Positions 7,270 through 27,528 of a stretch of 28,674 nucleotides of DNA are shown piece after piece. Location of the stretch: IMG/VR virus record IMGVR_UViG_3300022744_000082, positions 1-28,674 of that record. One strand, 5' to 3'. Both the position numbers and the translations under genes were made by a program. Every line of letters begins with the position of its first letter. The stretch's first letter is position 1. The notes under the pieces are model-generated. The model was given only the letters and a program-made list of their open reading frames with translations. It was not told the DNA's origin and made no database searches. The DNA is from a virus.

Positions 7270-7283
7270 CTCGGCCTCCTGCT

Positions 7284-7300
7284 AGCTGGCAATGCCAGCT
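7284..7300. promoter_or_regulatory. Perfect 17-bp palindrome (dispersed operator-like dyad, copy A)
   Basis: AGCTGGCA-A-TGCCAGCT is a perfect 8-bp inverted repeat around one base. It fills the 30-nt gap between the 109-aa gene stop (7300-7302) and the RBS of the 46-aa gene, with an extra GCTAGC at 7281-7286. Copies of the half-site TGCYAGC recur in the other major intergenic gaps. It is likely a regulator-binding site or part of a promoter for the leftward run that follows. Confidence 0.6.
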
Positions 7301-7629
7301 TACAGGCGTTCGATGAGCCGGTCCAGCTTCGCCATGACGTCCTTGTTCTGAGCGTCCATCCGGTCTGTCAGGGCCTTGTGCTGCGCTTCCATGCGCGCGA
7401 AGCCGTCCTTCACGTCATCCCGACGTGCGTAGACGTTGGGCATGTCACCCAAGGTTGAGTTGACCCGCCCGCTGATCCCCTGAACCTGTTGGTCGATGTA
7501 CTCGCGCAACTCGTCATGGTCGTTGCGAAGCGCCACCTGATCCCCCCGAAGCGCCTTTATGACGCCGCCGGCCAAGGCCAGGAGAGCAGCGAGTATGCCA
7601 TCAACCGCGATCTGCGGTACGTCGGCCAC
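7300..7629 (-). CDS. Membrane-anchored coiled-coil protein, 109 aa
   Basis: 109 aa from a GTG at 7629 with GGAG about 7 nt upstream. An N-terminal hydrophobic segment (GILAALLALAGGVIKAL, residues about 11-27) is followed by a long charged helical part suited to coiled coil (LRNDHDELREYIDQQV, then DRMDAQNKDVMAKLDRLIERL). This layout resembles small phage inner-membrane accessory or i-spanin-like proteins. It lies two genes upstream of the L,D-transpeptidase-like enzyme, so a lysis link is possible. No family name is assigned. Confidence 0.65.
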   Translation of the reverse strand: MADVPQIAVDGILAALLALAGGVIKALRGDQVALRNDHDELREYIDQQVQGISGRVNSTLGDMPNVYARRDDVKDGFARMEAQHKALTDRMDAQNKDVMAKLDRLIERL

Positions 7630-7654
7630 CCGCTACTCCCACCTGTTCGATGTC

Positions 7655-8311
7655 CTAGTTCAGGACGGTGAAGCCGATCTGGACCGTGCCGTTCAGGGCG
7701 TTGACCGAGTGGATGTTGGTGATGTTCACCGTGATGGTGCCCGAGCCGGGAACGCAGGTCATGGCGACCGGCAGACCGTTCGTCACCAGGGTGCCCGAGT
7801 ACGCCTGCAGGGTGCAGGCGATCAGGGACGTGGACGTCACCGACGAGTTGTTGATGACGTAGGCGGCGTTGGTGACGGCCGCGGTCGTCAGGGTGCCGGT
7901 GGTGACGATCCCGCGCTGGCCGTTGCAGGTCTGCGGGGTCGCGCCGGTCACGGTGCAGATGGTCTGCCCGAGGCGGACGATGCCGGTGCCGTTGCCGGCC
8001 ACGGAGAGGCCAACGTTGGTGTCAGCGCTGGCGCCGCCTGCGGAGATCGACGGCGCGGTGCCCGTGGCGGCCGGCGTGATCTTGATCTGGTTCACCGCGC
8101 TGGTGACGGACGGGATGTCGATGGCCGCGGCCACGGTGCCCGCGCCGGTCGGCGCCAGGTTGGTGTTGACGTTCGTGATGGCCGAGTTGACGAGCTCCTG
8201 AGGAGTCGACATCGGCGAGTTCACGTAGGACGCCGGTGCGGCGAAAGCCGGAGCAGACAGCGTCAGGGCCAGGATGGCCGCGGAGAACGTCGAGAGGATC
8301 TTGCGCATCAT
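7655..8311 (-). CDS. Secreted phage protein with signal peptide, 218 aa
   Basis: 218 aa from ATG 8311, or 217 from the adjacent ATG 8308; a farther upstream start would cross the promoter element. The N-terminus MMRKILSTFSAAILALTL is followed by SAPAFA-APAS, a textbook Sec signal peptide cleaved near residue 24. The mature part is Thr/Ser/Ala/Val rich with repeating beta-strand pattern. It ends in a segment (VINNSSVTSTSLIACTL, then VNITNIHSVNALNGTVQIG) typical of beta-sandwich phage appendage proteins. It contains several Cys. It is the last of four consecutive signal-peptide proteins. It is probably a surface/appendage-type protein, with function unknown. Confidence 0.7.
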   Translation of the reverse strand: MMRKILSTFSAAILALTLSAPAFAAPASYVNSPMSTPQELVNSAITNVNTNLAPTGAGTVAAAIDIPSVTSAVNQIKITPAATGTAPSISAGGASADTNVGLSVAGNGTGIVRLGQTICTVTGATPQTCNGQRGIVTTGTLTTAAVTNAAYVINNSSVTSTSLIACTLQAYSGTLVTNGLPVAMTCVPGSGTITVNITNIHSVNALNGTVQIGFTVLN

Positions 8312-8334
8312 AGGCCCCAACCGGATTGGCGAAT

Positions 8335-8375
8335 TGCTAGCTGGCACCGTAACCACAAAACGAGGCTCCGGTCAA
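8335..8375 (-). promoter_or_regulatory. Putative promoter with overlapping half-sites, upstream of the 218-aa gene
   Basis: On the minus strand TTGACC (8375-8370) lies 18 nt before TACGGT (8351-8346). The -10 abuts TGCCAGCTAGCA (8346-8335), two overlapping copies of the TGCYAGC/GCTRGCA half-site. The spacing and hexamers match the element at 10672-10701. It serves the 218-aa gene starting at 8311. Confidence 0.5.
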
Positions 8376-8385
8376 AACGGAGACC

Positions 8386-10200
8386 CTAGTTGTGTTTCAG
8401 CAGGATGCTGATCGCCTCGTAGCTGTCGGCGGCAGAGTTGGTCCAGCAGAGTCCGGCAATCGTTCCGGTGCCTAGAGGCGTCCCTTCGGTGATCGCGTTC
8501 TTGTCCACCATCGCCAACTGGCCCGGCGTCGCTGTGCTGCTGATCCGCAGGCGGGTCATGCCCGTCGCCGGCGGCGTCAGCAGATGGCTGGTCACGTTGG
8601 CGTTGAAGTTCGAGGAAATCGCGACGAGCGTGTCGCCGGTCGCCGTGGCGGTCGTCGCCGGCGCGCACTGACTCACTGTGGTCGCGTTGCTGACGATCGT
8701 CTGGATATCGTCGACACCACTGACGTTCTTGTAGGTCGCCAATGCGATGGCACGATACCGGCTACCCAGAGCGCCCGACTGCCAGGTGAGCGAATACTGG
8801 CCGCCTAGATCATTGGCCGCGAGAAACCCCGTACAAGCAAAGGCCATCTCCTTGTGGCCGATGCCGGACTGAAACACCGTCGTCAGGGTCCACACTGTTG
8901 ATCCCGGCGACGAGCAGGCGAAGGTCTGACCGGACGTGAAGAACGACGTGGCGTCGTCGATGGTGCCGAACACGATGGCGAAATCGCCCGTGCTAAGCTG
9001 CGCAGCAATGTTGGACGCGTCGATGGTGAAGGTGCAGGGCGTGGCGGCGCACGCCGTCTGGGTGTTGTTCGCCTGAAACTGGTGGTTCACTGCAACACCG
9101 CCAGGAACCCCAGAAGGTCCGAAAGGCGGCGTCCAGACCGATCCGCCGGTCTTCAGGGCCTGAACGCTGAAAGCCGTAGCAGCCGAGCCGGTCTGGCTGT
9201 CGGCGGTTCCGTGGTTGGTCGCGAACGCCGAATTATCTCCATAGACGCAGATGATCGGAACGGACGTTCCGTTGCTGACGTCGGAGCAATTGGCCGCATG
9301 CTGGACGGGGCCGCCTGTTCCCGCCCAGCCGCCGGTCGGATTGTACGACTTGTTCCGGATCTCGACAGGAATCACCGACGCCTGCGGGCAGGTCACGGCC
9401 ATGCCGTACATCGTGGCCGGCGTGTTCACGCCAGTGCAGAGCGGCGCCGGGCCGATATCAACGAACACGTCGGCCAGGTAGCCCCAGCTATTGTTCGTGG
9501 GGTTTCCGTTGATGAACCCGATACCCTTCGGATCTCCGACCGTGGCCAGGCGGTTGTCGTTGTTCCAGTCAACAGTCGTGGTCGCCATCGTGGTGGTGAA
9601 GTCGCCGGTCGATCCGCTGCAGCTGTTGCACCCCGCCAGCGTTCCGTTGCGGTAGATGGCCCAGCGGCTCGATGTGCCGTTCGACGCGTCGTAGGCGAGC
9701 TCGAAAAACTCCCACTTGCCGTCTGTCTGGGACGGTTGGCCAGGCGTGCCGGTGATGTCGAACCCGTGCCCCGCCCCTCCGGTGGAGTCGTAGAAGTTCA
9801 ACTGCATCTTGTTCGTGGTGTTGTCGTTCGCCATGCAAACCGACTTGCCGAGTTCGCAGCCCACATTCTGGAGCGTGCGGATCGGATCGAACGGGTTCGA
9901 CGACGACAGGGTGTTTGCCGTGGCCGGCTGGGCACGGGCGATGAACTGCCACCAGCCGATATGGGCCGTCTGGCTGGTGCCGCCATTCAGCGAGCAGTTA
10001 TAGGCGCCCAGCGCGCACCCGGCCTGCGGGCCGGCAATGGTTACGGCGCCATCGAAAGCGACGCCGAGGGGCTGATAGGACGGCGCCGTGATGCCGCTTG
10101 CGCTACCGGACCCAAAGCCGCGCATCAGCAGTTGTGCCGAAGCCGGGACCGACAGAAGCGCGACGCAGAGCGCCGCGATGAGCGCTATGGCGCGACGCAT
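8386..10200 (-). CDS. Large secreted phage protein with signal peptide, 604 aa
   Basis: 604 aa from ATG 10200, chosen because it gives MRRAIALIAALCVALLSV-PASA-Q, a clear Sec signal peptide cleaved near residue 22. The open frame continues upstream, but only as a shadow of the 146-aa gene. The mature part is Gly/Ser/Thr/Asn rich with many Cys (for example CALGAYNCSL and CNSCSG), consistent with disulfides outside the cytoplasm. Residues about 80-200 (WWQFIARAQ, WEFFELAYDAS, SRWAIYRNGTLAG) have the strand pattern of a LamG/concanavalin-like sandwich. It starts 5 nt after the 146-aa gene ends. Likely an adhesin or receptor-binding type; no firm family. Confidence 0.7.
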   Translation of the reverse strand: MRRAIALIAALCVALLSVPASAQLLMRGFGSGSASGITAPSYQPLGVAFDGAVTIAGPQAGCALGAYNCSLNGGTSQTAHIGWWQFIARAQPATANTLSSSNPFDPIRTLQNVGCELGKSVCMANDNTTNKMQLNFYDSTGGAGHGFDITGTPGQPSQTDGKWEFFELAYDASNGTSSRWAIYRNGTLAGCNSCSGSTGDFTTTMATTTVDWNNDNRLATVGDPKGIGFINGNPTNNSWGYLADVFVDIGPAPLCTGVNTPATMYGMAVTCPQASVIPVEIRNKSYNPTGGWAGTGGPVQHAANCSDVSNGTSVPIICVYGDNSAFATNHGTADSQTGSAATAFSVQALKTGGSVWTPPFGPSGVPGGVAVNHQFQANNTQTACAATPCTFTIDASNIAAQLSTGDFAIVFGTIDDATSFFTSGQTFACSSPGSTVWTLTTVFQSGIGHKEMAFACTGFLAANDLGGQYSLTWQSGALGSRYRAIALATYKNVSGVDDIQTIVSNATTVSQCAPATTATATGDTLVAISSNFNANVTSHLLTPPATGMTRLRISSTATPGQLAMVDKNAITEGTPLGTGTIAGLCWTNSAADSYEAISILLKHN

Positions 10201-10205
10201 GTGAC

Positions 10206-10646
10206 CTACCGGGTGTAGAGGTTGACGATGTAGGTGTTGGCCGCCGGCGCTGTCGTGCCGCTGTCGGCGTAGTCGGTCGTGACGGCCACGGACAGGCCGC
10301 CCGGGTAGTATACACCGCCGGCGCTGTCGGTGCGGCCCGGCAGTGGGATCACCGCTCCGGCGCCGCCGGTCGTGGCCGCTGGGATCATCACCCGATCCGT
10401 CACCACGGTCGTGCCAGTCGTCACCGAGGCGGCCGGCGTGCCGTACAGCTTCACATAGGCGATGGTCGACGAGTTGTTGAAGACCGTGATGCCGGTGAGC
10501 GTGCAGGGACCGTTGCACACCGCGACGGGGGTGGTGTTGTTGGCGACCTGAATGCTCTTGATGCCACCCTGGACCTGCGCGGCCACGGGCCCGGCCATCG
10601 CCAGGAACAGTGCGGCCCACGCCGCCAGGACCAAACGAAGCTTCAT
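10206..10646 (-). CDS. Secreted phage protein with signal peptide, 146 aa
   Basis: 146 aa from ATG 10646, preceded by AAGGGG 7 nt upstream. The N-terminus MKLRLVLAAWAALFLAMAG-PVAA-Q is a clear signal peptide cleaved near residue 23. The mature domain is a short beta-rich unit (CNGPCTLTGITVFNNSS, then AYVKLYGTPAA, then NTYIVNLYTR) with a Cys pair, like small phage head/tail decoration or fibre-tip sandwiches. It is first in a two-gene run with the 604-aa protein, just downstream of a promoter/operator element. The function is inferred only as an extracytoplasmic or surface protein. Confidence 0.7.
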   Translation of the reverse strand: MKLRLVLAAWAALFLAMAGPVAAQVQGGIKSIQVANNTTPVAVCNGPCTLTGITVFNNSSTIAYVKLYGTPAASVTTGTTVVTDRVMIPAATTGGAGAVIPLPGRTDSAGGVYYPGGLSVAVTTDYADSGTTAPAANTYIVNLYTR

Positions 10647-10671
10647 GCCGGACCCCTTTGCTAGGGTCGGC

Positions 10672-10701
10672 ACCATACAGCTAGCAGATGCCAGCGGTCA
10701 A
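10672..10701 (-). promoter_or_regulatory. Putative promoter with embedded operator dyad (copy B)
   Basis: Minus strand: TTGACC (10701-10696), an 18-nt spacer, then TATGGT (10677-10672). The spacer contains the dyad GCTAGCA-GA-TGCCAGC (plus-strand 10680-10695), so a bound regulator would block the promoter. A further GCTAGC overlaps the TAG stop of the upstream fibre gene (10706-10708). The promoter would drive the 146- and 604-aa secreted proteins. Confidence 0.55.
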
Positions 10702-10705
10702 AGTG

Positions 10706-11644
10706 CTAGCCGATCTTGCGGATGTAGACGTCGGTGTAGATTTCCGCGCTGCCATCCCCGATGGCCGAACAGTTCGTGCTGCCGATGGACGTCGAATAGG
10801 TGTCGAGCCGGACATCCTTGGATCCCGTCAGGGTGAACTGCCCGATCAGCGGACCATAGGTGCTTGCCGGCTGGGCTCCGTCGCCGCCAGCGGTCGAATA
10901 CGCCTGACCCAGCACCAACGTCGCCGCGTCCGTCACGTTGTAGAGCCGGTTCTTGTAGTGGTTCACCGCCGAGAAGCAGACGTTCGTGAAGACCTGCGCC
11001 TCGTAGGTTCCGGCCGGCAGGGTGATCTTGTTCGACGCCAGCGAAGCGCCGGAGATCGTGTTGGTCACGACCGTCTCAAGGGTGCGGGTGTTCCACGACG
11101 ACGATCCGAAAGATGACTCGTTGTTGTCCAGCCCCGTGGTGCGCTGATGCCGGACGTGGACAACACCCGGTTCGTTCAACAGCACCGCGGCGCCGCCCAC
11201 CTGCGCGAAGACGCCCGTGCTGGTCGCCCAGATGTCCCCGTTGCTCGGCGAGCTCGGCGCGACGCCGGCCGGCAGGTTGATGGACGCGATCGACGTGGTG
11301 GGCGTCGCGAAGGTCTGGGTCGTCGCCCAGGTGTTGGCCGTCGAGAAGATCGACGTCGCCTGCCCCGTGCCGCCCTGCGACGCCGACAGGGGCGTGCTCA
11401 GACCCGACAGGGACGTGATGTCGCTGTTCGCGCCATTGTGGGCCAGGTTCCCGTTGGCGCAGGTCAGGATGTTGTTGAAGTTCGCCATGACCTGCGTGGC
11501 GTCGGCCACCTGACCGTTCGTCAGCGTGTACGGGTAGGACGAACAGTTGGCGGCCTTTGCCGGCGGCGCGGCCAGCATGAAGGCAAGCAGCACCAGCGTG
11601 CTGGCGAAGAGAACCGCCATGATGCGGTCGGACAGCTTGGTCAT
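10706..11644 (-). CDS. Tail-fibre-like protein with signal peptide, 312 aa
   Basis: 312 aa. The ATG at 11644 overlaps the tail-hub stop by 4 nt. The first 31 residues (MTKLSDRIMAVLFASTLVLL, then AFMLAAPPAKA) form a signal peptide. The following YPYTLTNGQVADATQVMANF and LSTPLSASQGGTGQ segments resemble the start of phage/prophage tail-fibre-like proteins. The C-terminal half (NKITLPAGTYEAQVFTN, then RLYNVTDAATLVLGQAYS) looks like a fibre-tip sandwich as seen in C1q/collar-like fibre domains. Translational coupling to the hub supports a tail role, yet a Sec signal on a virion protein is unusual. Confidence 0.65.
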   Translation of the reverse strand: MTKLSDRIMAVLFASTLVLLAFMLAAPPAKAANCSSYPYTLTNGQVADATQVMANFNNILTCANGNLAHNGANSDITSLSGLSTPLSASQGGTGQATSIFSTANTWATTQTFATPTTSIASINLPAGVAPSSPSNGDIWATSTGVFAQVGGAAVLLNEPGVVHVRHQRTTGLDNNESSFGSSSWNTRTLETVVTNTISGASLASNKITLPAGTYEAQVFTNVCFSAVNHYKNRLYNVTDAATLVLGQAYSTAGGDGAQPASTYGPLIGQFTLTGSKDVRLDTYSTSIGSTNCSAIGDGSAEIYTDVYIRKIG

Positions 11645-13488: not shown

Positions 13489-13489
13489 C

Positions 13490-14839: not shown

Positions 14840-14841
14840 GG

Positions 14842-15420
14842 TCAAGCCGCCATCGGGCCGTTGATGACGGCGCCGCTCTTCGCGTTGAAGATCGTGTTCC
14901 GGGGCAGGCGGCCGCGGTCGGCGATGCCCTTGCCGTTGATCTCGTTGTCGTGCAGCCACGCCCTCCACTGGATGTCGCGCAGGCTGTCGGCGATGTGCCG
15001 CGGCACCGTGTACGTCTTGGTGTGGAAGTACACGAAGCCGTTGATGGTGATCCGGTCGGTGAACTCCGGCAGGTCCATCGTGATCTCGACGAGCTCATCC
15101 TTCTGGGGATCGCCCGTACGGATGCCGCGCTTGCCCCGCATCTCGTCGTAAGCCTGGGCTTCGACGTGCTTGAGGGCCTCCTTCTTCGCGTCTTCCTCGA
15201 CGCGCTTCTTGGCCCGCTCGATGGCGGCGCGGTACTCGTCGTTGGTCAGGATCGGGTGAAGACGCGGCTCTTCCTTGGCGGTGACGGCTTCGCCGACCTC
15301 GGCTTCGATCGCCGCTTCCAGGACGGCGTCGGTTTCAGGCGCGGCCACTGGCGCCGCCGGCGCTTCACCTAGCAGATCCGCGCGCGACAGCGCTTCCTTG
15401 TCCGATTCCTTGGCAGGCAT
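14842..15420 (-). CDS. Hypothetical head-region phage protein, 192 aa
   Basis: 192 aa, first gene after the promoter-like element at 15448-15477. The N-terminal 50 residues are acidic, Ala/Glu-rich and probably disordered, followed by a Lys/Glu helix (RAAIERAKKRVEEDAKKEAL). The C-terminal domain is more conserved-looking (DRITINGFVYFHTKTYTVPR, then LRDIQWRAWLHDNEINGKG). No catalytic motif is evident. It forms a tight run with the 188-aa, adaptor, hub and fibre genes, so a head-completion or tail role is plausible. Confidence 0.65.
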   Translation of the reverse strand: MPAKESDKEALSRADLLGEAPAAPVAAPETDAVLEAAIEAEVGEAVTAKEEPRLHPILTNDEYRAAIERAKKRVEEDAKKEALKHVEAQAYDEMRGKRGIRTGDPQKDELVEITMDLPEFTDRITINGFVYFHTKTYTVPRHIADSLRDIQWRAWLHDNEINGKGIADRGRLPRNTIFNAKSGAVINGPMAA

Positions 15421-15447
15421 GGCCCCTCACCGTGTTGTTGGCACGGC

Positions 15448-15477
15448 AACGTACCACTAGCACCGTGCCAGCGTCTA
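15448..15477 (-). promoter_or_regulatory. Putative promoter with embedded operator dyad (copy C)
   Basis: Minus strand: TAGACG (15477-15472), an 18-nt spacer, then TACGTT (15453-15448), the same geometry as the element at 10672-10701. The spacer holds ACTAGCA-CCG-TGCCAGC (plus-strand 15456-15472). The -35-like hexamer includes the TAG stop of the 99-aa gene. The hexamers are weak; the dyad is the stronger evidence. It would drive the 192-aa gene and the four genes after it. Confidence 0.5.
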
Positions 15478-15774: not shown

Positions 15775-15793
15775 TGGTCTTTCACCTTCCTAG

Positions 15794-15824
15794 AAAAACG
15801 CCCCGGCCCGTGAAGGCCGGGGCG
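15794..15824 (-). terminator. Rho-independent terminator after the capsid gene
   Basis: On the minus strand a perfect 10-bp G+C stem (CGCCCCGGCC / GGCCGGGGCG, plus-strand 15799-15808 and 15815-15824) with a 6-nt loop is followed directly by five U (15798-15794). It lies 30 nt past the capsid stop and just ahead of the 99-aa gene, so it limits or partly passes late transcription. Confidence 0.9.
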
Positions 15825-15853
15825 CAGTTACCACCCACGCGAGAGACCGGGCG

Positions 15854-17197: not shown

Positions 17198-17236
17198 CCT
17201 TGGAGCCCCCTACTGCGGGGCCAGGATGGCGCCCGC

Positions 17237-18052
17237 TTAGATGATCTGACCTTCAAGGCGCTTGCGGCGCGCCTCTCGGTCGTTGGTCCGTCCCTGAGCT
17301 CCGCGGGAAACATCCCCGCGGCCGTTCGGTGGACGGGAAACTTGGTGCCGTTCCCGGCCTTCCCGTTCGCGCTCGCGTCCCTGGCGTCCAGCGCGACCGG
17401 CGCGCTCAAGAGCCATTTCGCCCAGCACGTACTTCGCGACCGTCTCGCGGGCTGCGTTGTTGCCGGAGGCGCGCAGTTCCTGCAGGCGCTTCTCGACACG
17501 GTTCGCGACCTTCGCGATGGCGGGGTTCCGGCCACATAGGGCCGAGAACGCCGCCTGGTCGTTGGCTTCCCAGGTCTGGAAGCGGGTCTCGTTGATCTGC
17601 TGCTGGATGCGCTGTTCGCTCTCCCGCATCAGGAACGTGACCCGCTCTTCCGCCGTCATTTGCGCCAGCCGGCGCTCACGTTCGGCGGCCACTTCCTCTG
17701 GCGGGCGCTGCGGGGCGGCAGGGGTGGAGCGGCGAGCCGCATCCAGTTCCGCCTGAAGCCGATCCGCCCGTTCCTTCTCGGCCTTGGCCCTGTCGTTCAG
17801 CCGCTGGATGCGGTTCTGACCTCGGGAGTCCTGGCGTTGTTGGTGCTGGGGCGGTTCGTCCGCGTCGTCGCCATCGTCGGCGTCGTCCTGGTCGTCCGCG
17901 AGATCGGGGTCGTCATCGTCGCCGTAGTCGTCTTCGTCGCCCTGATCGTCGTAGCCGTCATCGGCCGGAGGATCTTCGTAGGCGCCACCCCCGTCGTCAT
18001 TCTCCGGGGCGAAAGCGATTGCGCTGCCAAGCAGCAGACGGCGGATGAGCAT
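17237..18052 (-). CDS. Putative capsid scaffolding protein
   Basis: 271 aa from ATG 18052, preceded by GGAGG. A short N-terminal segment leads to a strongly acidic Asp-rich tract (residues about 18-66), then a long charged helical coiled-coil region (RIQRLNDRAKAEKERADRLQ), and a basic Arg-rich C-terminus (residues about 235-271). Acidic helical proteins with a basic C-terminal capsid-binding tail placed just before the capsid gene are typical scaffolds. There is no protease motif. It is preceded by a promoter-like element, so it begins the head-shell unit. Confidence 0.7.
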   Translation of the reverse strand: MLIRRLLLGSAIAFAPENDDGGGAYEDPPADDGYDDQGDEDDYGDDDDPDLADDQDDADDGDDADEPPQHQQRQDSRGQNRIQRLNDRAKAEKERADRLQAELDAARRSTPAAPQRPPEEVAAERERRLAQMTAEERVTFLMRESEQRIQQQINETRFQTWEANDQAAFSALCGRNPAIAKVANRVEKRLQELRASGNNAARETVAKYVLGEMALERAGRAGRQGREREREGRERHQVSRPPNGRGDVSRGAQGRTNDREARRKRLEGQII

Positions 18053-18120
18053 CCAACCTCCATAGTCCCTTCCGGGGACAAGTCGAAATATGTGCGGTGA
18101 CTTCCGGCCACCAGTCGTGC

Positions 18121-18163
18121 GCTGGCAAAATGCTACGGACTGCGCCTGCTGTCAAATGCCAGC
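18121..18163 (-). promoter_or_regulatory. Putative promoter/operator upstream of the scaffold gene (copy D)
   Basis: Plus-strand dyad GCTGGCA-AAA-TGCTACG (18121-18137) and a further TGCCAGC (18157-18163) flank a minus-strand TTGACA (18155-18150). A minus-strand TAGCAT lies 14 nt downstream of TTGACA; at normal 16-18 nt spacing no good -10 is seen, so the operator reading is firmer than the promoter reading. The gap is about 120 nt long, between portal stop and scaffold start. Confidence 0.5.
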
Positions 18164-18170
18164 AGACGGA

Positions 18171-20291: not shown

Positions 20292-20296
20292 CGGCG

Positions 20297-22324: not shown

Positions 22325-22536
22325 TGCTCTTCTTCGGCGTAGCGTCCGCGGATGTGCCGGTGGAAGAACTGGCCGGCGGACCCCGCGGCCTGGAACTGGC
22401 GGGCCACCTGGGCCGGCACGTTCAGGTAATCGTAGGTCCGGCCATCGGTGAATTCGATGGTCAGGGTGTCGGTCGACTCGTCGAAGTCGACCTGCCCGAT
22501 ATGGGACGACGCGGGGCGCCAGGCTAGGCTAGCCAT
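22321..22536 (-). CDS. KTSC-domain protein
   Basis: 71 aa. The sequence follows the KTSC pattern closely: SSHIGQVDFDESTDTLTIEF, then GRTYDYLNVPAQVARQF, then AGQFFHRHIRGRY. This is a small beta-rich domain found in phage and bacterial proteins whose biochemical role is unclear. It ends in an EEEQ tail. Its start overlaps the preceding 35-aa gene by 8 nt and its stop overlaps the terminase GTG, so it is co-translated with terminase. The position would also suit a small packaging partner, but no DNA-binding motif is visible. Confidence 0.8.
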   Translation of the reverse strand: MASLAWRPASSHIGQVDFDESTDTLTIEFTDGRTYDYLNVPAQVARQFQAAGSAGQFFHRHIRGRYAEEEQ

Positions 22537-22636
22537 CGCAGTTGCATCCCTTGTCGGTGGACAGAACCTGAAGGATCCAGAACGCCAGGAACCCGACGCC
22601 CACCCCGGTCAGGACCATCTCGATCGTGTGAACCAT
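22529..22636 (-). CDS. Small single-span membrane peptide, 35 aa
   Basis: 35 aa (MVHTIEMVLTGVGVGFLAFW, then ILQVLSTDKGCNCDG). One hydrophobic helix covers about residues 7-25, with a short Cys-containing tail. It begins 1 nt after the lipoprotein stop and overlaps the KTSC gene, so it belongs to the lysis-terminase run. It could be an antiholin/holin-like accessory; too short to classify. Confidence 0.5.
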   Translation of the reverse strand: MVHTIEMVLTGVGVGFLAFWILQVLSTDKGCNCDG

Positions 22637-22637
22637 G

Positions 22638-22835
22638 TCAGTCTCCGCAGGCGGCCTTCCACGCCGCGTTGTGGGCCCTGACGGCCATCTGGGTTTCCAG
22701 GGTGTCGTTCCTCGACCAGCTTATGGGAGGGAACGCGGTGCAGGCCGCCTTCGCCACGGCCGGCGACGCCTCAATCGCGGCGGAACCCGTCGTCTGGCAG
22801 GCCGCCACCGTCATCGCGAGGGCCAGCCAGGTCAT
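22638..22835 (-). CDS. Lipoprotein, probable outer-membrane spanin (Rz1-like)
   Basis: 65 aa from ATG 22835, chosen because it gives MTWLALAMTVAAC, a short lipoprotein signal with lipobox VAAC and Cys13. The mature part is about 53 residues (QTTGSAAIEASPAVAKAACT, then ISWSRNDTLETQMAVRAHNA) with two more Cys, as in small phage o-spanins. It starts inside the 80-aa membrane-type ORF in another frame and extends past its end, the classic overlapping Rz/Rz1 layout, and it lies next to a holin-like gene. It would span from the outer membrane to an i-spanin during lysis. Confidence 0.6.
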   Translation of the reverse strand: MTWLALAMTVAACQTTGSAAIEASPAVAKAACTAFPPISWSRNDTLETQMAVRAHNAAWKAACGD

Positions 22836-23013
22836 GGTAGGCGCGATAGCGTGCCCGATCAGCGACGGCGACAAGATCGACGGCCGCCTCGGCGTCTGCC
22901 GCCCGCTGCCGTGCGGAGCCCCGATCCCCTGCCTCATCAGTCGCGGACCTGTTCTTCGGCGCGAAAGCGTCGACCAGGACCCTGGCGAGGAAGTCGAGGA
23001 TCGCGGCCCACAC
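22771..23013 (-). CDS. Possible inner-membrane spanin partner, overlapping the lipoprotein gene
   Basis: 80 aa from a GTG at 23013, 9 nt past the holin-like stop. The N-terminus MWAAILDFLARVLVDAFAP is hydrophobic/amphipathic, followed by a charged helical stretch (ARQRAADAEAAVDLVAVADR). The last 65 nt overlap the lipoprotein gene in a different frame. There is no strong RBS, so translation may be coupled to the holin gene. The arrangement argues for an i-spanin; the weak transmembrane helix and short length keep confidence low. Confidence 0.45.
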   Translation of the reverse strand: MWAAILDFLARVLVDAFAPKNRSATDEAGDRGSARQRAADAEAAVDLVAVADRARYRAYHDLAGPRDDGGGLPDDGFRRD

Positions 23014-23021
23014 GGCACGGG

Positions 23022-23261
23022 CTACCGGCCAAGAACCTTGTGGACGTCCCGCTTCTGGATCGCGGACCAGACGAAGGCGACCAGGGCCACGGCGGCGGCG
23101 CCGCCGAACTGGATCAGCTGGGTCTGGAAGTCGGACGTCGCCAGGCCCTTCGCGGCCAGAACCCCGGCCAGCAGGGTCATCGCGTGACGCCCGGCCGACG
23201 CGGCCAGCTGGGTCACGAAGGCGGGAAGTTCGGGGCCGGGGGCCGGATCAAGCTGGGTCAT
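23022..23261 (-). CDS. Putative holin, 79 aa
   Basis: 79 aa from ATG 23261 with AGGAG 7 nt upstream. Two hydrophobic segments are visible: RHAMTLLAGVLAAKG (about residues 25-39) and LIQFGGAAAVALVAFVWSAI (about 49-68). A charged C-terminal tail follows (QKRDVHKVLGR). Size, two-span topology and the pattern 'H-x-L-T..GG..A..G' resemble small phage holins of the Pam3-gp28 type. It is followed directly by the spanin-like pair. It would permeabilise the inner membrane at lysis time. Confidence 0.6.
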   Translation of the reverse strand: MTQLDPAPGPELPAFVTQLAASAGRHAMTLLAGVLAAKGLATSDFQTQLIQFGGAAAVALVAFVWSAIQKRDVHKVLGR

Positions 23262-23328
23262 GTCGAGCTCCTGTCGGGAAGGGGCCGCCGCGCCGGAACC
23301 CGCGCAGCGGCCCATCTCCACCCAGCGC

Positions 23329-23344
23329 CGCTTCCCCCGAAGCG
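23329..23344 (-). other. Short perfect hairpin in the leader before the holin gene
   Basis: CGCTTC-CCCC-GAAGCG is a 6-bp stem with 4-nt loop in the 95-nt gap between the 56-aa gene and the holin-like gene. No U tract follows on the minus strand, so it is not a good terminator. It could stabilise or space the transcript. Confidence 0.3.
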
Positions 23345-23356
23345 CCGCCGAATCGC

Positions 23357-23527
23357 TTACTCGGGCTTCGCCGCCCGAAGGGCCACGGCTTCCTCGGTCA
23401 GAAGCCCCGTGGCCGGGTCGATGCTGTCATGCCGCTCGTCGCGGCCGACGCCGGTGACGGCCGGATCCTTCGGGTCCAGCCCGTGATCCGCCGCTTCGGC
23501 CACCGCGTCTTCGGTCTTCCTGCTCAT
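23357..23527 (-). CDS. Small hypothetical protein, 56 aa, first leftward gene
   Basis: 56 aa from ATG 23527 (MSRKTEDAVAEAADHGLDPK...), with a G-rich stretch GGGGGCCGGG just upstream; longer upstream readings would cross the promoter element. It is acidic, hydrophilic, with no transmembrane span or Cys. It opens the leftward late region, ahead of holin, spanins, terminase and portal. The function is not recognised. Confidence 0.55.
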   Translation of the reverse strand: MSRKTEDAVAEAADHGLDPKDPAVTGVGRDERHDSIDPATGLLTEEAVALRAAKPE

Positions 23528-23553
23528 CCCGGCCCCCGGTCGCTGGTTCTTCG

Positions 23554-23590
23554 TGCCAGCCAGCATCGTGCCAGCGCAAACCGCTGTCAA
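23554..23590 (-). promoter_or_regulatory. Putative promoter/operator for the leftward late region (copy E)
   Basis: Minus-strand TTGACA (23590-23585), with GATGCT 17 nt downstream as a weak -10. The plus strand holds GCCAGCA-TCG-TGCCAGC (23559-23575) and an extra TGCCAGC (23554-23560), covering the spacer and -10. It is placed 27 nt before the first leftward start codon. Confidence 0.5.
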
Positions 23591-23883
23591 GGCCCCAAGG
23601 GCCCCCACCCTGGCAGGCCGCGGTGTTGTCCTTGGGAGACGGATGCGGCCATTGGGCGTCGGATGGGGGCCCCGCACGGCTCGTCGTGCGTTCGCCGGTC
23701 CAGTTCGGGGAAGCTGGGAGGCCATGTCGGTCTGGATCGACTGCCAGCAGGGTGGATCACTTCGCTTTGCTGGTCAAGCGGGTCGCATGGTCGCCGTTTC
23801 GGAGGGCTGAACCCTTGGCGGCGGTGGCGGATGTGACGGCGTTGGGGCCGTATCGGTGGCAAGGCTGCTATGGATTGTCAAAA

Positions 23884-23914
23884 TTGGCGCGGTTTTTGTG
23901 TGAGGGGTGATAAT
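23884..23914 (+). promoter_or_regulatory. Possible rightward promoter 1
   Basis: TTGGCG (23884-23889), a 19-nt spacer, then GATAAT (23909-23914) in an A+T-richer patch. The sequence around the -10 (GGTGATAAT) recurs at 24042-24050. It points towards the rightward genes. Confidence 0.4.
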
Positions 23915-23986
23915 TTTCGCCGAAACGGGGGTCCGGGGCGTTTTTCCCGAACCGCCGCCAAGCCCTTGCCGGCCGCCACGGCGTTT

Positions 23987-24004
23987 CGCTGGCGTTTGCC
24001 AGCG
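23987..24004. promoter_or_regulatory. Operator-like dyad (copy F)
   Basis: CGCTGGC-GTTT-GCCAGCG is a perfect 7-bp inverted repeat. It lies between the two rightward promoter-like sequences and uses the same half-site as the other gaps. Confidence 0.5.
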
Positions 24005-24020
24005 TTGAGCCGCTACGTCA

Positions 24021-24050
24021 TTGAGTTTGTTACGGTGTTTCGGTGATAAT
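24021..24050 (+). promoter_or_regulatory. Possible rightward promoter 2
   Basis: TTGAGT (24021-24026), an 18-nt spacer and GATAAT (24045-24050, 5 of 6 to TATAAT). This is the best sigma-70-like pair in the control region. It lies 17 nt downstream of the dyad at 23987-24004. Confidence 0.45.
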
Positions 24051-24104
24051 ATGTGAAATCGTGGGGCGATTGGTGGGTTTATGGGACTGCCAAGGCGCCG
24101 GGTA

Positions 24105-24124
24105 TGCGGTACGTGGATACCGCA
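24105..24124. repeat. Perfect 7-bp inverted repeat
   Basis: TGCGGTA-CGTGGA-TACCGCA; an overlapping GGTAT...ATACC pair (24101-24121) allows an alternative alignment. It has a different sequence from the dispersed dyad, so it may bind another regulator or an initiator. Confidence 0.4.
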
Positions 24125-24134
24125 ACGCCGCCTC

Positions 24135-24171
24135 GCGTCACACCTGGCCCACGCGTAACGTGCGTCACACC
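24135..24171 (+). repeat. Direct repeat of a decamer, two copies
   Basis: GCGTCACACC occurs at 24135-24144 and 24162-24171, 27 bp apart. It may be an iteron-like or activator site in the control region, though two copies could be chance. Confidence 0.3.
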
Positions 24172-24279
24172 CACACACGATTGGACCTAACGAAACACTG
24201 TAAAGGGTTCACCATAAGACAGCACGCTAAGAGACACCCTTAGAACGCACCTTTAAGGATATGCTTGCGTAAATGCGCT

Positions 24280-24296
24280 ACTAGCATCATGCTAGC
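24280..24296. promoter_or_regulatory. Operator-like dyad (copy G)
   Basis: ACTAGCA-TCA-TGCTAGC (perfect CTAGCA/TGCTAG arms), preceded by a TTGCGT at 24265-24270. It is upstream of the leader hairpin and of the first rightward gene. Confidence 0.5.
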
Positions 24297-24326
24297 AGGC
24301 ATGGTGATCGGCACGGGAAGGGAGTT

Positions 24327-24371
24327 GTTATCCGGGCTAAGCCAAGCGCCGAACGAGGCTTGCCCGATAAC
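24327..24371 (+). other. Large leader hairpin before the first rightward gene
   Basis: Left arm 24327-24343 (GTTATCCGGGCTAAGCC) pairs with right arm 24357-24371 (GGCTTGCCCGATAAC) with small bulges, giving about 14-15 pairs and a 13-nt loop. There is no U tract, so not a simple terminator. It may be an attenuator, an mRNA-stabilising structure, or DNA-level symmetry. Confidence 0.45.
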
Positions 24372-24387
24372 ATACGCTCCCCCCTGC

Positions 24388-24406
24388 TGTCAACCTGCTA
24401 CGTGGC
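24388..24406. promoter_or_regulatory. Degenerate element before the first rightward gene (copy H)
   Basis: TGTCAA (24388-24393, a minus-strand TTGACA) followed by TGCTACG and TGGCA, the same parts as copy D in different order. It lies only 5 nt before the GGAG of the next gene. It is the weakest member of the set. Confidence 0.3.
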
Positions 24407-24422
24407 AAATGGAGCAAGCAAA

Positions 24423-24872
24423 ATGGGTAACAGTCTCAAGTTGGCGTTTGATGCGCCCCCGCCAGTCGGATTCGAATATGTGGACGCGGGATTCACTTAT
24501 CGGGTTATCGCGTCGCGCCCTCACACGAACATGAGAGGCGAGCAATCCGCCGTCATCACCTGGCAGGGATTGTGCGCAGAGGACGGGGCGCCCTTCACGT
24601 TCAAAACCGGAGCTCGCATCTACAGCTTCCGGCGCCGTTGCAAGGATCACAACGCGGGCTGGGTTCCGGCCGCGCCGTTCGGAACGGCGCCCAAGGATCC
24701 GCGTAGCGAAGGCGAGATCGTGAAGGCGTTCCTTGACCGCTGGGCGAAGGCCTTGGACGCAATGGAAAGGGACAGCCCCGCGGCGAAGCGCGGAAACATG
24801 GCCTGGGATGAGGCGACAAACCGTGCGGAGGAAGAATTTCCGCGCGCGTTCGCAGAGGACGCGGAGGGATAG
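24423..24872 (+). CDS. Hypothetical early-region protein, 149 aa
   Basis: 149 aa from ATG 24423, with GGAG 8 nt upstream; the longer reading from 24360 would run through the hairpin and operator-like element. The N-terminal half looks beta-rich (FEYVDAGFTYRVIASRP, then SAVITWQGLCAEDGAPF), with a basic patch YSFRRRCKDHNAG. The C-terminal half is helical and charged (EIVKAFLDRWAKALDAMERD). There is no catalytic motif. It forms a single-gene unit closed by the terminator at 24899-24925. Confidence 0.7.
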   Translation: MGNSLKLAFDAPPPVGFEYVDAGFTYRVIASRPHTNMRGEQSAVITWQGLCAEDGAPFTFKTGARIYSFRRRCKDHNAGWVPAAPFGTAPKDPRSEGEIVKAFLDRWAKALDAMERDSPAAKRGNMAWDEATNRAEEEFPRAFAEDAEG

Positions 24873-24898
24873 GCCCGCGCACATTGCCAGACACTCTC

Positions 24899-24925
24899 AA
24901 CCCCGCTCCGGCGGGGTTTTTCTTT
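24899..24925 (+). terminator. Rho-independent terminator
   Basis: AACCCCGC-TCCG-GCGGGGTT forms an 8-bp stem with a 4-nt loop (24899-24918), followed by a T-rich tract ending at 24925. It ends the 149-aa gene transcript. Confidence 0.9.
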
Positions 24926-24963
24926 GCCAGCTGGCATTGACAGTAATTGGCAGCGCTGCTAGC
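24925..24963 (+). promoter_or_regulatory. Putative promoter/operator for the second rightward unit (copy I)
   Basis: The perfect palindrome TGCCAGCTGGCA (24925-24936) is followed at once by TTGACA (24937-24942), then TTGGCA-GCGC-TGCTAGC (24947-24963). TAGCAG lies 17 nt after TTGACA as a weak -10. It is placed straight after a terminator and 30 nt before the next gene. Confidence 0.55.
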
Positions 24964-24986
24964 AGACAGGGGCTTAACCTTGGGAG

Positions 24987-25002
24987 GCTAGCAAATGCTG
25001 AC
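24987..25002. promoter_or_regulatory. Imperfect dyad overlapping a start codon
   Basis: GCTAGCA-AA-TGCTGAC covers the RBS-to-start region of the 82-aa gene (ATG at 24995). One half-site is perfect, the other has one mismatch. If bound, it could repress at the initiation region; it may also be chance. Confidence 0.3.
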
Positions 25003-25243
25003 ATGTCGAGACATTCGGGAAGCTGACGCTGTGGCGCATGCGCGTAACGTCGCGAAGCTTCAGACCATGGCCAATCCGCGGAGCGGCCGCATCGTGCGAG
25101 AGTCTGAGCTCGCGCGGTACATGGCGAGCAGGACCTACCGCCGCGCGCGGATCCGCGAAGCGCGCTCCAACCTGATCTGGGCTGTGGGTATCGCTGTGGC
25201 GATGTGGTGCGGCCTCGCGCTCCTGATCATGGCGGTGCTGTGA
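24995..25243 (+). CDS. Small membrane protein, 82 aa
   Basis: 82 aa; ATG 24995 has GGGAGG about 8 nt upstream. The N-terminal 58 residues are basic and hydrophilic (Arg-rich, RTYRRARIREARSN), followed by one C-terminal transmembrane helix (LIWAVGIAVAMWCGLALLIM). This is a tail-anchored layout with a basic cytoplasmic part. It heads a run of tightly packed small genes; its stop overlaps the next ATG (TGATG). The function is unknown; small tail-anchored early phage proteins often act on host membrane processes. Confidence 0.65.
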   Translation: MLTCRDIREADAVAHARNVAKLQTMANPRSGRIVRESELARYMASRTYRRARIREARSNLIWAVGIAVAMWCGLALLIMAVL

Positions 25244-25488
25244 TGGGTGTTTTCTGGAAACCCCACAAGGAACACCCGTGCGCCGATGGCGTCACGCGTA
25301 CCGTCTATATCCGCGGCGAAGTTGCACCGTTTGTCGGCTGGATTGCGACGCCAGACACCTATTTTTCGTGCGCCGCTTTCGTCCGCGTGCGGGGCGCCCG
25401 GGTCCGCGGATTCGTTGGGGAGTGCGGCGACGTATACGCGTTTCACCCGCTCGACTCTGACGCACACAAGATGGCGGTGCTGTGATGG
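25229..25488 (+). repeat. 18-bp direct repeat at two gene junctions
   Basis: ATGGCGGTGCTGTGATGG occurs at 25229-25246 and again at 25471-25488. Each copy spans the end of one gene (MAVL then stop) and the TGATG start of the next. The identity suggests local duplication or a recombination joint. Confidence 0.7.
25243..25485 (+). CDS. Hypothetical protein, 80 aa
   Basis: 80 aa from ATG 25243, coupled to the previous stop by TGATG. Beta-rich and basic (HPCADGVTRTVYIRGEVAPF, then CAAFVRVRGARVRGFVGECG), with three Cys. The 18-bp repeat sits at both ends, so the whole gene is bracketed by identical junctions. The family is not recognised. Confidence 0.6.
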   Translation: MGVFWKPHKEHPCADGVTRTVYIRGEVAPFVGWIATPDTYFSCAAFVRVRGARVRGFVGECGDVYAFHPLDSDAHKMAVL

Positions 25489-26087
25489 CCTATTTCGAGC
25501 CTGATCGGGGTGAAATGAAGCTATCGCCCCGCTTCGTAACCGACTTGGCCGATGCGCTAGGCGGCCGTGACGTGAACCACGAATATCAGTCTGGCGCCTT
25601 CACTGTGGGCGATCTCCGCGTGATCCTGCGGCAAGGCTGGGGCGCCAAGGCGCGCCGCGTCCGTGTGGTCTGCACGGCGGCCGACACGGAAGCTTGTCGC
25701 CGCGCCTATTCCCAGGGTGGAAGCTTCCCGTTTCCGGAAGCGACGATAGATCCGGAGCGGCCGCTAGACGCTGTGGTGAAGGATCTGCAGCGCCGCATCA
25801 TCGACAAGGCCGCGCCGGCCTTGGCGCGCGTCGCTGAAGCCTCCGCGAAGCAATCCGCGGAAGCGCTGCAGCTGCGGGAGCATGCCGAACGGATCAACGA
25901 TCGGTTTCCGGGCACGGTCACAGAGCACACGGACTCCAGCAAGCGCGAGGCGGGATTCTACTTCAACCAAGCCGGCTCGTATCTGAGTGGGCGCCTGTGC
26001 AGTGACGGCCGGCTGTACGTCGACCGTCTGGGCACGGTTCCGGCTCACAAGGTTGAGCGCTTGCTGGCGCTTCTCGCAGAAGCCTGA
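25485..26087 (+). CDS. Hypothetical protein with central helical region, 200 aa
   Basis: 200 aa from ATG 25485 in a TGATG junction; a GTG 3 nt earlier is possible. It has an N-terminal mixed domain (RFVTDLADALGGRDVNHEYQ, then VGDLRVILRQGWGAKARRVR), a helical Ala/Glu/Arg segment around residues 95-140 (LARVAEASAKQSAEALQLRE) and a small C-terminal beta domain (LYVDRLGTVPAHKVERLLAL). No catalytic residues are apparent. Two strong hairpins follow its stop. The function is unknown. Confidence 0.65.
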   Translation: MAYFEPDRGEMKLSPRFVTDLADALGGRDVNHEYQSGAFTVGDLRVILRQGWGAKARRVRVVCTAADTEACRRAYSQGGSFPFPEATIDPERPLDAVVKDLQRRIIDKAAPALARVAEASAKQSAEALQLREHAERINDRFPGTVTEHTDSSKREAGFYFNQAGSYLSGRLCSDGRLYVDRLGTVPAHKVERLLALLAEA

Positions 26088-26097
26088 AGGCTGACGT

Positions 26098-26162
26098 TTC
26101 GGACAGGCCGGGCGGATCCGCGAAAGGGTCCGCCCTAGCCTGTCCGAAGCGCCAACGCTTCG
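26098..26162 (+). other. Two adjacent, partly exclusive RNA hairpins
   Basis: Hairpin 1: perfect 11-bp outer stem TTCGGACAGGC / GCCTGTCCGAA (26098-26108, 26138-26148) stacked on a 7-bp inner stem GGGCGGA / TCCGCCC (26110-26116, 26129-26135). Hairpin 2: CGAAGCG-CCAA-CGCTTCG (26145-26162), which shares CGAA with hairpin 1. No U run follows. It lies between the 200-aa and 99-aa genes. Confidence 0.6.
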
Positions 26163-26182
26163 CATCAACAGGAACAACGGCC

Positions 26183-26482
26183 ATGGCCGAACGGCTTTAT
26201 TGGACCTGCGGCAGCGGAAAGCTGGACCTGCAGTTGACGTTGGAGGACGCCGAATCCGGGCATCACCAGGGCGAGTGTGAAGATGATGTGCGCGCCTTGC
26301 GCCGCCTCCCCTACGTCGCCGAACAACTCCGCGCTTGGGATCCTGAGCACGTCCGCGACGAATTGCGCGGCTATGGCGCGTGGGAAGAGGATGATCTGGC
26401 AGACGAGGACCTTAACGAGGTCCGGATGCTCTGGCTTGCCTGCGGCGACGTCGTCGAGAACGCGCGGGAGGCCGGCCAATGA
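26183..26482 (+). CDS. Acidic hypothetical protein, 99 aa
   Basis: 99 aa, ATG 26183 with AGGAA about 10 nt upstream. Highly acidic throughout (ECEDDVRALRRLPYVAEQ, then YGAWEEDDLADEDLNEVRM) and helical. Charge and size are like DNA-mimic or anti-host early phage proteins, but no family match is known to me. It is the first gene after the tandem hairpins and is coupled by ATGA to the next gene. Confidence 0.65.
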   Translation: MAERLYWTCGSGKLDLQLTLEDAESGHHQGECEDDVRALRRLPYVAEQLRAWDPEHVRDELRGYGAWEEDDLADEDLNEVRMLWLACGDVVENAREAGQ

Positions 26483-26865
26483 CCTGCGGCGAGCTTTTCG
26501 GCTTTCACCAGGCGGACATGGCAGAAAGCCCCCAGGACCGTGAGCACTGCCGGCTCGACCTGGATTCGGTGTCCAGCCCGGGCCAGGCGCTGCGCTTCAT
26601 AATGGCGTGGCGGCCTATGCTTCGCGAGCTCCTGATCAATCCTCCACAGGATCCGGCCGTTACGGCCGAGCTTGAGCAGGAACTGAAAGAGGCGACCGAC
26701 ACGGCCGATCGTCTCGCCAACGCCATGGCCGATGCGCGGATCCACATCAGCCGCGGCGCCGAGTTCCTTTACGAGGACACCCCCGATATCGGCGCCGCAG
26801 ATGCTGAGCTAACCCGGGCCGAGGATGAGCTTTTCAACGCGCTCAAGCGCGAAGAATACCTATGA
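26479..26865 (+). CDS. Acidic helical hypothetical protein, 128 aa
   Basis: 128 aa, start overlapping the previous stop (ATGA). Mostly helical, with a coiled-coil-like stretch (AELEQELKEATDTADRLANA) and an acidic C-terminus (AADAELTRAEDELFNALKRE). The N-terminal GELFGFHQADMAESPQDREH has His/Cys but no clear metal site. It is co-translated with the 99-aa protein, which suggests they work together. The function is not recognised. Confidence 0.65.
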   Translation: MTCGELFGFHQADMAESPQDREHCRLDLDSVSSPGQALRFIMAWRPMLRELLINPPQDPAVTAELEQELKEATDTADRLANAMADARIHISRGAEFLYEDTPDIGAADAELTRAEDELFNALKREEYL

Positions 26866-26872
26866 CACCCTG

Positions 26873-26904
26873 CCCCGCGTCCGGTCTCCCCAGCCGGCGC
26901 GGGG
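26873..26904 (+). terminator. Possible weak terminator or leader hairpin
   Basis: CCCCGC-GT-CCGG (26873-26884) pairs with CCGG-C-GCGGGG (26894-26904), followed by TTGCTCTTT. The stem is strong but the U tract is interrupted, so termination may be partial. If it is real, the ATGA start of the next frame at 26862 is not the true start. Confidence 0.4.
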
Positions 26905-26921
26905 TTGCTCTTTGGCAGGGG

Positions 26922-27266
26922 ATGGAACCAAAACCTATGTACATCAAAGGATTGGATGATCCCGGGCGCCAGCTTTTCGCTGGCCATGCGCTGGACTTTA
27001 GTGCTATCCGGCATTCCTCGTTTGGGAGACGGGATACACGCCAGATGGCTTTTTCGCTCATTGCTACATTCTACGACCTGACAGGCTGGACCGATTCGCG
27101 GATCGCCCAGATGCTGAATATGCCCAGGTCGACCGTCCAGGCGTTCCGGTCAGGCAAGCTGACTGAAAACCTGAACCCCGAGCAGCGCGATGCGCTGGTC
27201 AAGGCCGCGCAGCAATATCGGCTGTGGGTCTACAACACCGTGGCCGAAATGGAGCTCCGCAGCTAG
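26922..27266 (+). CDS. Helix-turn-helix DNA-binding protein, candidate regulator
   Basis: 114 aa from ATG 26922. Other possible starts are 26937 (better SD spacing) and 26862 (ATGA overlap with the previous gene); the extra residues from 26862 are Pro/Arg-rich and encoded by the hairpin, so that start is less likely. Residues about 57-78 read TDSRIAQMLNMPRSTVQAFR, a good helix-turn-helix of the Xre/sigma-like type. A helical region follows (PEQRDALVKAAQQYRLWVYN). It is probably a small transcription factor; it lies just upstream of operator copy J and is closed by its own terminator. It is a candidate to bind the dispersed dyad, but this is not shown. Confidence 0.65.
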   Translation: MEPKPMYIKGLDDPGRQLFAGHALDFSAIRHSSFGRRDTRQMAFSLIATFYDLTGWTDSRIAQMLNMPRSTVQAFRSGKLTENLNPEQRDALVKAAQQYRLWVYNTVAEMELRS

Positions 27267-27283
27267 GACGCTGCGGAGCTTTT
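27253..27283 (+). terminator. Rho-independent terminator with the stop codon in its loop
   Basis: AGCTCCGCAG (27253-27262) pairs perfectly with CTGCGGAGCT (27271-27280), with an 8-nt loop holding the TAG stop of the HTH gene (27264-27266), then TTTT. The last codons of the gene form the 5' arm. Confidence 0.85.
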
Positions 27284-27470
27284 CGGTGCATCCCGGTGCG
27301 TCTCGATGCGAGCGCCGGGCGCGGCCCCATTTTGGGTATCGCGGGCCGTAGACACAGCTGACGGCCTGCGTTCAGCATCACAACCATCCCGTGCTCAGTG
27401 TACGTTGGACCGTCTGGCGATATGAGCCAGGCGGCTTTGCGCGTGTCCCGCCCGCTCCCCTCTGAGGCGA

Positions 27471-27528
27471 ATTGGCACGACGCCAGCTAGCACTTGACAC
27501 CCCTGCCAGCGCGCTTCTAACTGTCAAG
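27471..27528 (+). promoter_or_regulatory. Putative promoter/operator for the right-end gene run (copy J)
   Basis: Dyad ATTGGCA-CGA-CGCCAGC (27471-27487), then GCTAGCA (27486-27492), TTGACA (27494-27499), TGCCAGC (27504-27510) and TCTAAC 16 nt after TTGACA. An inverted CTTGACA...TGTCAAG pair brackets the promoter (27493-27499, 27522-27528). The remaining gap 27284-27470 shows nothing else clear. Confidence 0.6.

Follow-up and report, generated by a model that had tools for sequence, protein, structure and literature searches.

Introduction

Operators dispersed over the genome are known from few phages. The C1 repressor of P1, a myovirus whose prophage is a plasmid, has many operators that are scattered over the genome and overlap sigma-70 promoters; they are asymmetric 17-mers. 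In the Streptomyces phage phiC31, the repressor binds the CIRs, 17-bp inverted repeats dispersed in the genome, some of them at promoters. L5 and the other Cluster A phages carry 20-30 repressor sites across the genome, some in promoters and many in short gaps, and the motif is phage-specific; in L5 each site is an asymmetric 13-mer that is bound by a monomer and points in the direction of transcription, and most sites lie away from promoters (PMC6550527, PMC9283540).

Here we analyzed a recurrent dyad in IMG/VR virus record IMGVR_UViG_3300022744_000082, a contig of 28,674 bp classed by IMG/VR methods and referred to below as the window. Its putative operators were compared with these systems. 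Against the 20-30 sites of L5 and Cluster A phages stand 30 half-sites at about 13 places in a 28.7-kb fragment of an incomplete genome. In contrast to those of L5, the sites are symmetric dyads without preferred orientation and lie mostly on promoter-like hexamers. The original prediction had likened them to L5 stoperators; a genome-wide operator set is indeed the best reading, but the likeness to L5 is functional only. As in P1, the sites are scattered and overlap predicted sigma-70-type promoters; unlike those of P1, they are symmetric. The sequence layout of phiC31 CIRs and P1 C1 operators is present: one motif, mainly intergenic, overlaps predicted promoters of early and late units, here on both strands. 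The sequence, the host group and the phage type differ from those of phiC31.

The window is probably a genome fragment, and about one third of the phage genome, roughly 15 kb, is probably missing since longer related contigs measure about 43-47 kb. On the minus strand, a lysis block is followed by terminase, portal, scaffold, capsid and tail genes and finally by genes for ejection-type proteins and an M15-peptidase protein; plus-strand genes rightward of 24.4 kb appear to be early. Genes were called with a home-made caller, in which small ORFs are uncertain, and the scaffold gene was named from its position and its acidic homologues. A search of IMG/VR with the major capsid protein gave 80 kept loci at about 68-80% identity. 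Its GenBank relatives are distant (<30% identity), and a search of about 85,000 bacterial and archaeal genomes gave a single relative, on a 43-kb MAG contig. A ParA search for phage-plasmid genes gave one match, below threshold, and a tRNA scan gave none.

Results

A half-site word is concentrated in intergenic DNA

The original prediction listed ten places for a dyad of the form GCTRGCA-N1..3-TGCYAGC. All ten hold the sequence and the inverted half-sites are real, but the literal form is exact only at 5529-5545, 7285-7299 and 10680-10695, and a cluster at 5529-5569 had been missed. The dyads at 15456, 18121, 23559, 23988 and 24280 are 1-2 mismatches away from the literal form, those at 8335, 24925 and 27481 are the overlapping palindrome TGCYAGCTRGCA, and 24925-24963 and 27471-27510 are composite sites (Table 1). 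A loose dyad search allowing 3 mismatches returned 27 occurrences against 22.7 expected, which is not above chance. Because the literal dyad is exact at only three places and the loose dyad is not enriched, the half-site was taken as the unit; it is there that the signal resides.

The half-site GCTRGCA/TGCYAGC occurs 30 times in the window and 23 of these copies are in noncoding DNA, which makes up 8.6% of the window (gaps 7-9%), giving an odds ratio of 35 (p = 4e-19). The location mostly in gaps had been predicted, and equal frequency inside genes, named at the time as a possible refutation, is not what is observed. All 7-mers were also ranked, in an unbiased manner, by their preference for gaps; the top three words were GCTGGCA, GCTAGCA and CTGTCAA (equivalent to TTGACAG), with gap/coding counts of 14/4, 9/3 and 5/0, respectively. 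Among 1260 words of the same composition, no other reached the gap count of GCTRGCA (control mean 0.65), and none equalled its clustering, with 20 of the 30 half-sites no more than 30 bp from another (control mean 0.6). Four of the seven half-sites scored as coding fit the gap pattern, namely the 5529-5569 cluster and the copy at 10704 that abuts the 10680 dyad; with the 5529-5569 cluster counted, 27 of the 30 fall in 13 short regions that represent 7.5% of bases. The ranking, the odds ratio and the 1260-word control rule out a composition artefact. Chance or base composition, with which the lack of enrichment of the loose dyad would agree, is left with a negligible probability by the wide margin over all composition-matched words and by the p value.

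Half-sites are arranged as inverted pairs 1-4 nt apart, as the overlapping palindrome or as extra single copies; both orientations are found within one gap, and direct or widely spaced copies also occur. Inverted repeats near operon borders could be read as RNA hairpins serving as terminators, processing sites or antitermination sites. This is hardly credible here: a loop would have hardly any space in the overlapping palindromes and at N1 spacings, some half-sites are direct or widely spaced copies, no T-runs follow the dyads, and terminator-like hairpins are found separately at 15798-15825 and at 24899-24918, the latter beside the early rightward promoter.

Table 1. Putative control sites and associated features, with positions in the window unless a related locus is named
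Feature	Position	Strand	Details
Putative operator cluster	5529..5569		Exact dyad GCTAGCA-GCC-TGCCAGC and third half-site at 5563; inside the 3' end of the preceding ORF, ~60-95 bp ahead of gene 3877-5472
TGCTAGCTGGCA overlapping GCTGGCA-A-TGCCAGC	7280..7299		Fills a ~30-bp gap from stop codon to next ribosome site; possible roadblock, without a visible -35 box
Palindrome TGCTAGCTGGCA	8335..8346		Ahead of gene 7655-8311; just downstream of weak promoter-like TTGACC(8370, -)-17-TTACGG
Predicted promoter TTGACC(10696-10701)-18-TATGGT(10672-10677)	10672..10710	-	Dyad 10680-10695 forms the spacer; the -35 is directly preceded by half-site 10704-10710; the scan's only sigma-70-like match in 5.2-18.4 kb
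Dyad ACTAGCA-CCG-TGCCAGC	15456..15472		Gap ahead of gene 14842-15420
Predicted scaffold-capsid promoter	18121..18163	-	-35 TTGACA 18150-18155; half-site 18157-18163; dyad GCTGGCA-AAA-TGCTACG (18121-18137) over -10/start
Twin-hairpin RNA leader of scaffold-capsid mRNA (predicted)	18050..18116	-	CGAC-stem-CGGAA loop, twice; between promoter and scaffold start codon
Promoter-like TTGACA (23585-23590)	23554..23590	-	Head of lysis-terminase-portal run; dyad GCCAGCA-TCG-TGCCAGC and third half-site over spacer/-10
Dyad GCTGGCG-TT-TGCCAGC	23988..24003		Control gap
Dyad ACTAGCA-TCA-TGCTAGC(A)	24280..24297		Control gap
Degenerate dyad CGTAGCA-GGT-TGACAGC	24386..24402	-	Over leftward TTGACA (24388-24393)
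Predicted early rightward promoter	24925..24993	+	Palindrome TGCCAGCTGGCA; TTGACA 24937-24942; dyad TGGCA-GCGC-TGCTA (24948-24963) in spacer/-10; half-site GCTAGCA 24987-24993, ATG at 24995
109-aa HTH protein	26937..27266	+	Weak HTH_23/Terminase_5/Xre-like similarity
Predicted second rightward promoter	27473..27510	+	Dyad TTGGCA-CGA-CGCCAG overlapping CGCCAGCTAGCA; TTGACA 27494-27499; half-site 27504-27510 in spacer
Example leaders	L004 4801-4862; L010 1467-1528; L100 3734-3795		Scaffold leaders of related loci

Half-sites lie on promoter-like hexamers

The window has seven TTGACA hexamers, every one of them in a gap between genes. GCTRGCA stands 0-2 nt ahead of TTGACA/C at 10696 and 18150 on the minus strand and at 24937 and 27494 on the plus strand. 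This geometry, a hypothesis chosen after seeing the data, applies to 4 of 10 gap occurrences against 0.018 expected for each (P = 2e-5 with random gap positions); general proximity of TTGACA to half-sites within gaps is not above chance (P = 0.19). At several promoters the second half-site is TGACAGC/TGACMGC and shares bases with TTGAC(A/C), so that a dyad arm enters the -35, as in GCTGGCA-TT-TGACAGC at 18150. Further dyads take up the spacer (10680-10695), lie over the -10 or the start (18121) or come after the start (8335). By sequence, at least six sites overlap -35/-10 hexamers. The -10 boxes are poor, and at 5529, 7280, 23988 and 24280 the sites were not matched with any clear promoter belonging to them. 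The division of the late genes into runs by these sites was broadly right in the original prediction, except that the 23988 and 24280 sites share one control gap (23.5-24.4 kb) and that a further half-site, at 24987, sits between ribosome site and ATG.

Two other modes of action were weighed against these positions. The near-fixed placement upstream of TTGACA/C in four promoters, together with the weak -10 boxes, would suit activator sites or a phage-specific promoter class, the second option of the original prediction, in which a regulator beside the -35 would bring host RNA polymerase to weak promoters and give one signal for early and late genes. We consider this unlikely: other sites fall within the spacer, cover the -10, follow the start or separate a ribosome site from its ATG, positions at which an activator would block, the promoters resemble the sigma-70 type, and relatives keep and use the scaffold promoter without such a site. 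Overall, the positions of the sites fit steric blocking better than activation. T7-type promoters, which are unidirectional and about 23 bp long, differ from the sites of the window, which are symmetric, vary in arrangement and accompany TTGACA hexamers. A search for the phage RNA polymerase gene with PF00940 gave no match in 25 records, and control genomes were equally empty. That the sites might mainly stop elongation in the manner of L5 stoperators, instead of acting as operators, is suggested by three places without visible promoter, which lie between genes (7280), in a gene end (5529) and in a leader (24987). With the hexamers overlapped elsewhere, and with symmetric sites that allow no orientation preference, this reading is very improbable for the set.

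The predicted scaffold promoter and an RNA hairpin array are shared across the lineage

The leader directly downstream of the scaffold promoter contains an array of 1-3 tandem hairpins, a copy number that depends on our own unit criteria, each composed of CGACU, a stem and a CGNWA pentaloop. In an alignment of eight phages, 98.9% of cells pair and 24 two-sided changes are found against 7.5 in shuffles; this covariation signal collapses when the partners are slid by one column. With a covariance model and a limit of E < 0.001, 55 of the 80 capsid loci contain the element (counted manually from the table, the eight training sequences included), in nearly all of them at a single position some 0.85-0.95 kb upstream of capsid. 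Among 46 distinct single units, 101 two-sided changes were counted against 26 in shuffles; these units were chosen for the CGNWA loop and the stem, so that pairing is partly selected for, but the CGACU flank, which took no part in the choice, is conserved as well. Scanning 2.9 million contigs with a 22-letter pattern gave 26 matching contigs, 25 of them beyond the loci already studied. All carry homologues of proteins of this phage family. In those extending far enough downstream, either an acidic scaffold-like ORF comes next or its capsid neighbour can be recognised, and the truncated ones end just after the portal gene. Rfam gave no match to the element, and no description of it was found in a literature search.

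In 47 of 50 distinct leaders (window included), TTGAC is found at most 120 nt upstream of the first matched hairpin, compared with 10% of random 120-nt windows. The usual distance is about 38 nt, or about 64 nt where an extra hairpin intervenes, and TTGAC is kept in the portal-to-scaffold gap of nearly all relatives in which scaffold directly follows portal. The predicted scaffold promoter at 18150 is thus a phylogenetic footprint, which supports it independently of the dyads, and this conservation would place the putative operators at 18121 and 18157 on a lineage-wide promoter. In many relatives, about 8-12 nt separate the end of the best -10 match from the first matched hairpin, so that the array is probably situated at the 5' end of the scaffold-capsid mRNA or close to it. 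It represents a candidate new RNA family, for which a protein-binding translational operator and a 5' stabiliser are the two obvious options and may both be considered.

Relatives keep the promoter and lack the dispersed dyad

Dispersed GCTRGCA dyads were found in none of the relatives, and the word is absent from the same gaps even where terminase, portal and capsid are about 50-80% identical. Conservation in these gaps, the check proposed in the original prediction, is therefore not observed; this does not refute an operator set since operators are expected to diverge with their repressors. It does bear on whether the sites are those of a host protein, a regulator or a nucleoid protein, under whose control the phage happens to fall. 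No repressor was recognised in the window, which leaves room for such a protein, but 23-27 sites on the fragment's own promoters, without counterparts in relatives, suggest a phage-specific system, and a host origin is judged highly unlikely.

Distinct dyads on the scaffold promoters of relatives, a question also framed after seeing the data, show a modest excess, with 6 of 47 at p <= 0.05 against about 2.4 expected; these six include the window and the near-identical pair L051/L070 and thus amount to four distinct relatives, with L056 at 0.06. The relatives concerned are L051/L070, L036 (7191-7207), L059 (1978-1994), L019/L020 and, more weakly, L056; where checked, their dyads have no repeats elsewhere in their sequence. 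One of the dyads of L051, L070, L059 and L036, CTTGACAGTTTGTCAAG, contains the -35.

An HTH_3 match was obtained in 16 of 24 virus records (23 relatives and the window), 12 of them above the curated cut-off, and the window has none. Integrase was clearly matched in one of 27 related records and weakly in another; most relatives have no tyrosine integrase match. Five relatives (G005, G012, G014, G017 and G025) carry an HTH gene beside dense genome-specific repeats confined to one locus. These switch-like regions, like lambda-type clustered operators, occupy one locus, whereas the set of the window is dispersed. Dense palindromic repeats (TGCACA and TTACATGTAA-type words) lie beside HTH_3 genes at 1.87-2.4 kb in G005, 3.39-3.86 kb in G012 and 6.0-6.65 kb in G017; they are possibly switch operators or replication/partition sites. 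G014 (L100-L102) has the clear integrase and two HTH_3 genes. Seven copies of CTTTACA surround one of these genes (35907-36697), and the single other copy in the genome follows directly after the TTGACA of the scaffold promoter (3670-3682). We count this copy, likewise noticed after seeing the data, as an analogy within the family for the operator reading.

Among the remaining relatives examined, none spreads its own word over the genome. Candidates were rejected in G004 (ribosome-site contexts), G022 (repeats between early genes) and L020 (a probable tandem repeat, from word counts only), and the other high-ranking words form clusters at one locus. In G022 (L103), at least six near-identical intergenic units (CTGACGGCAGACACCCTGCAG...CTGCAGGAGCCTG) stand ahead of small early genes at about 0.57-3.0 kb and are reminiscent of start-associated sequences. 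In L020, words like CACAGGA/TCAGCCA occur in about 8 copies concentrated in noncoding DNA. When the same operator-promoter arrangement was sought in 2.9 million viral contigs, the two matches represented one chance match in a DNA-ligase-like gene of an unrelated phage type. As judged from sequence, the dispersed set appears so far peculiar to the phage of the window.

Discussion

Combined, these results make it rather probable that a single sequence-specific DNA-binding regulator uses the dyads as dispersed operators on sigma-70-type promoters; most likely it is a dimeric repressor that the phage itself encodes. The dimer would bind inverted GCTRGCA halves in an operator that straddles or abuts the -35, often with a further operator in the spacer, over the -10 or over the start. 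Bound regulator would exclude RNA polymerase simultaneously from the early rightward promoters (24937, 27494) and from the leftward late promoters at 23585, 18150 and 10696, and probably those at 15456 and 8370. Sites without visible promoter (5529, 7280, 24987) could act as elongation roadblocks.

The 109-aa HTH protein, encoded near the 27.5-kb operators and the only regulator-like protein noted, is a candidate for the regulator. Searches of the viral collection, the relatives and the PDB gave it no homologues, and its structure model is of low confidence. Several observations speak against the operator reading: neither a repressor nor an integrase was recognised in the fragment, the word is missing from the corresponding gaps of relatives, which apart from the window's phage do not disperse one, the -10 boxes are poor, TTGACA is in general no closer to half-sites within gaps than by chance, and the variable spacing of the dyads (overlapping, N1-N4) is unusual for a rigid dimer. 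Such a repressor might serve lysogeny or a delay of the lytic programme. A temperate lifestyle is doubtful because most relatives lack the integrase match and the family was met in only one of the bacterial and archaeal genomes searched.

It is conceivable, if somewhat doubtful, that the phage silences nearly every promoter through one dispersed dyad and keeps the capsid unit under a second layer of control, in which the lineage-wide hairpins bind a phage protein that sets translation or mRNA stability. If the operator reading is true, a single protein could switch off nearly the whole virus. Scaffold-capsid and other late promoters are among those covered by the set, and the podovirus-like lineage concerned has no close relatives in culture. 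As the examined relatives do not disperse theirs, the gain of dispersed control would be traceable inside one family, and the hairpin array offers a direct way into the question of how these phages may adjust their output of capsid and scaffold.
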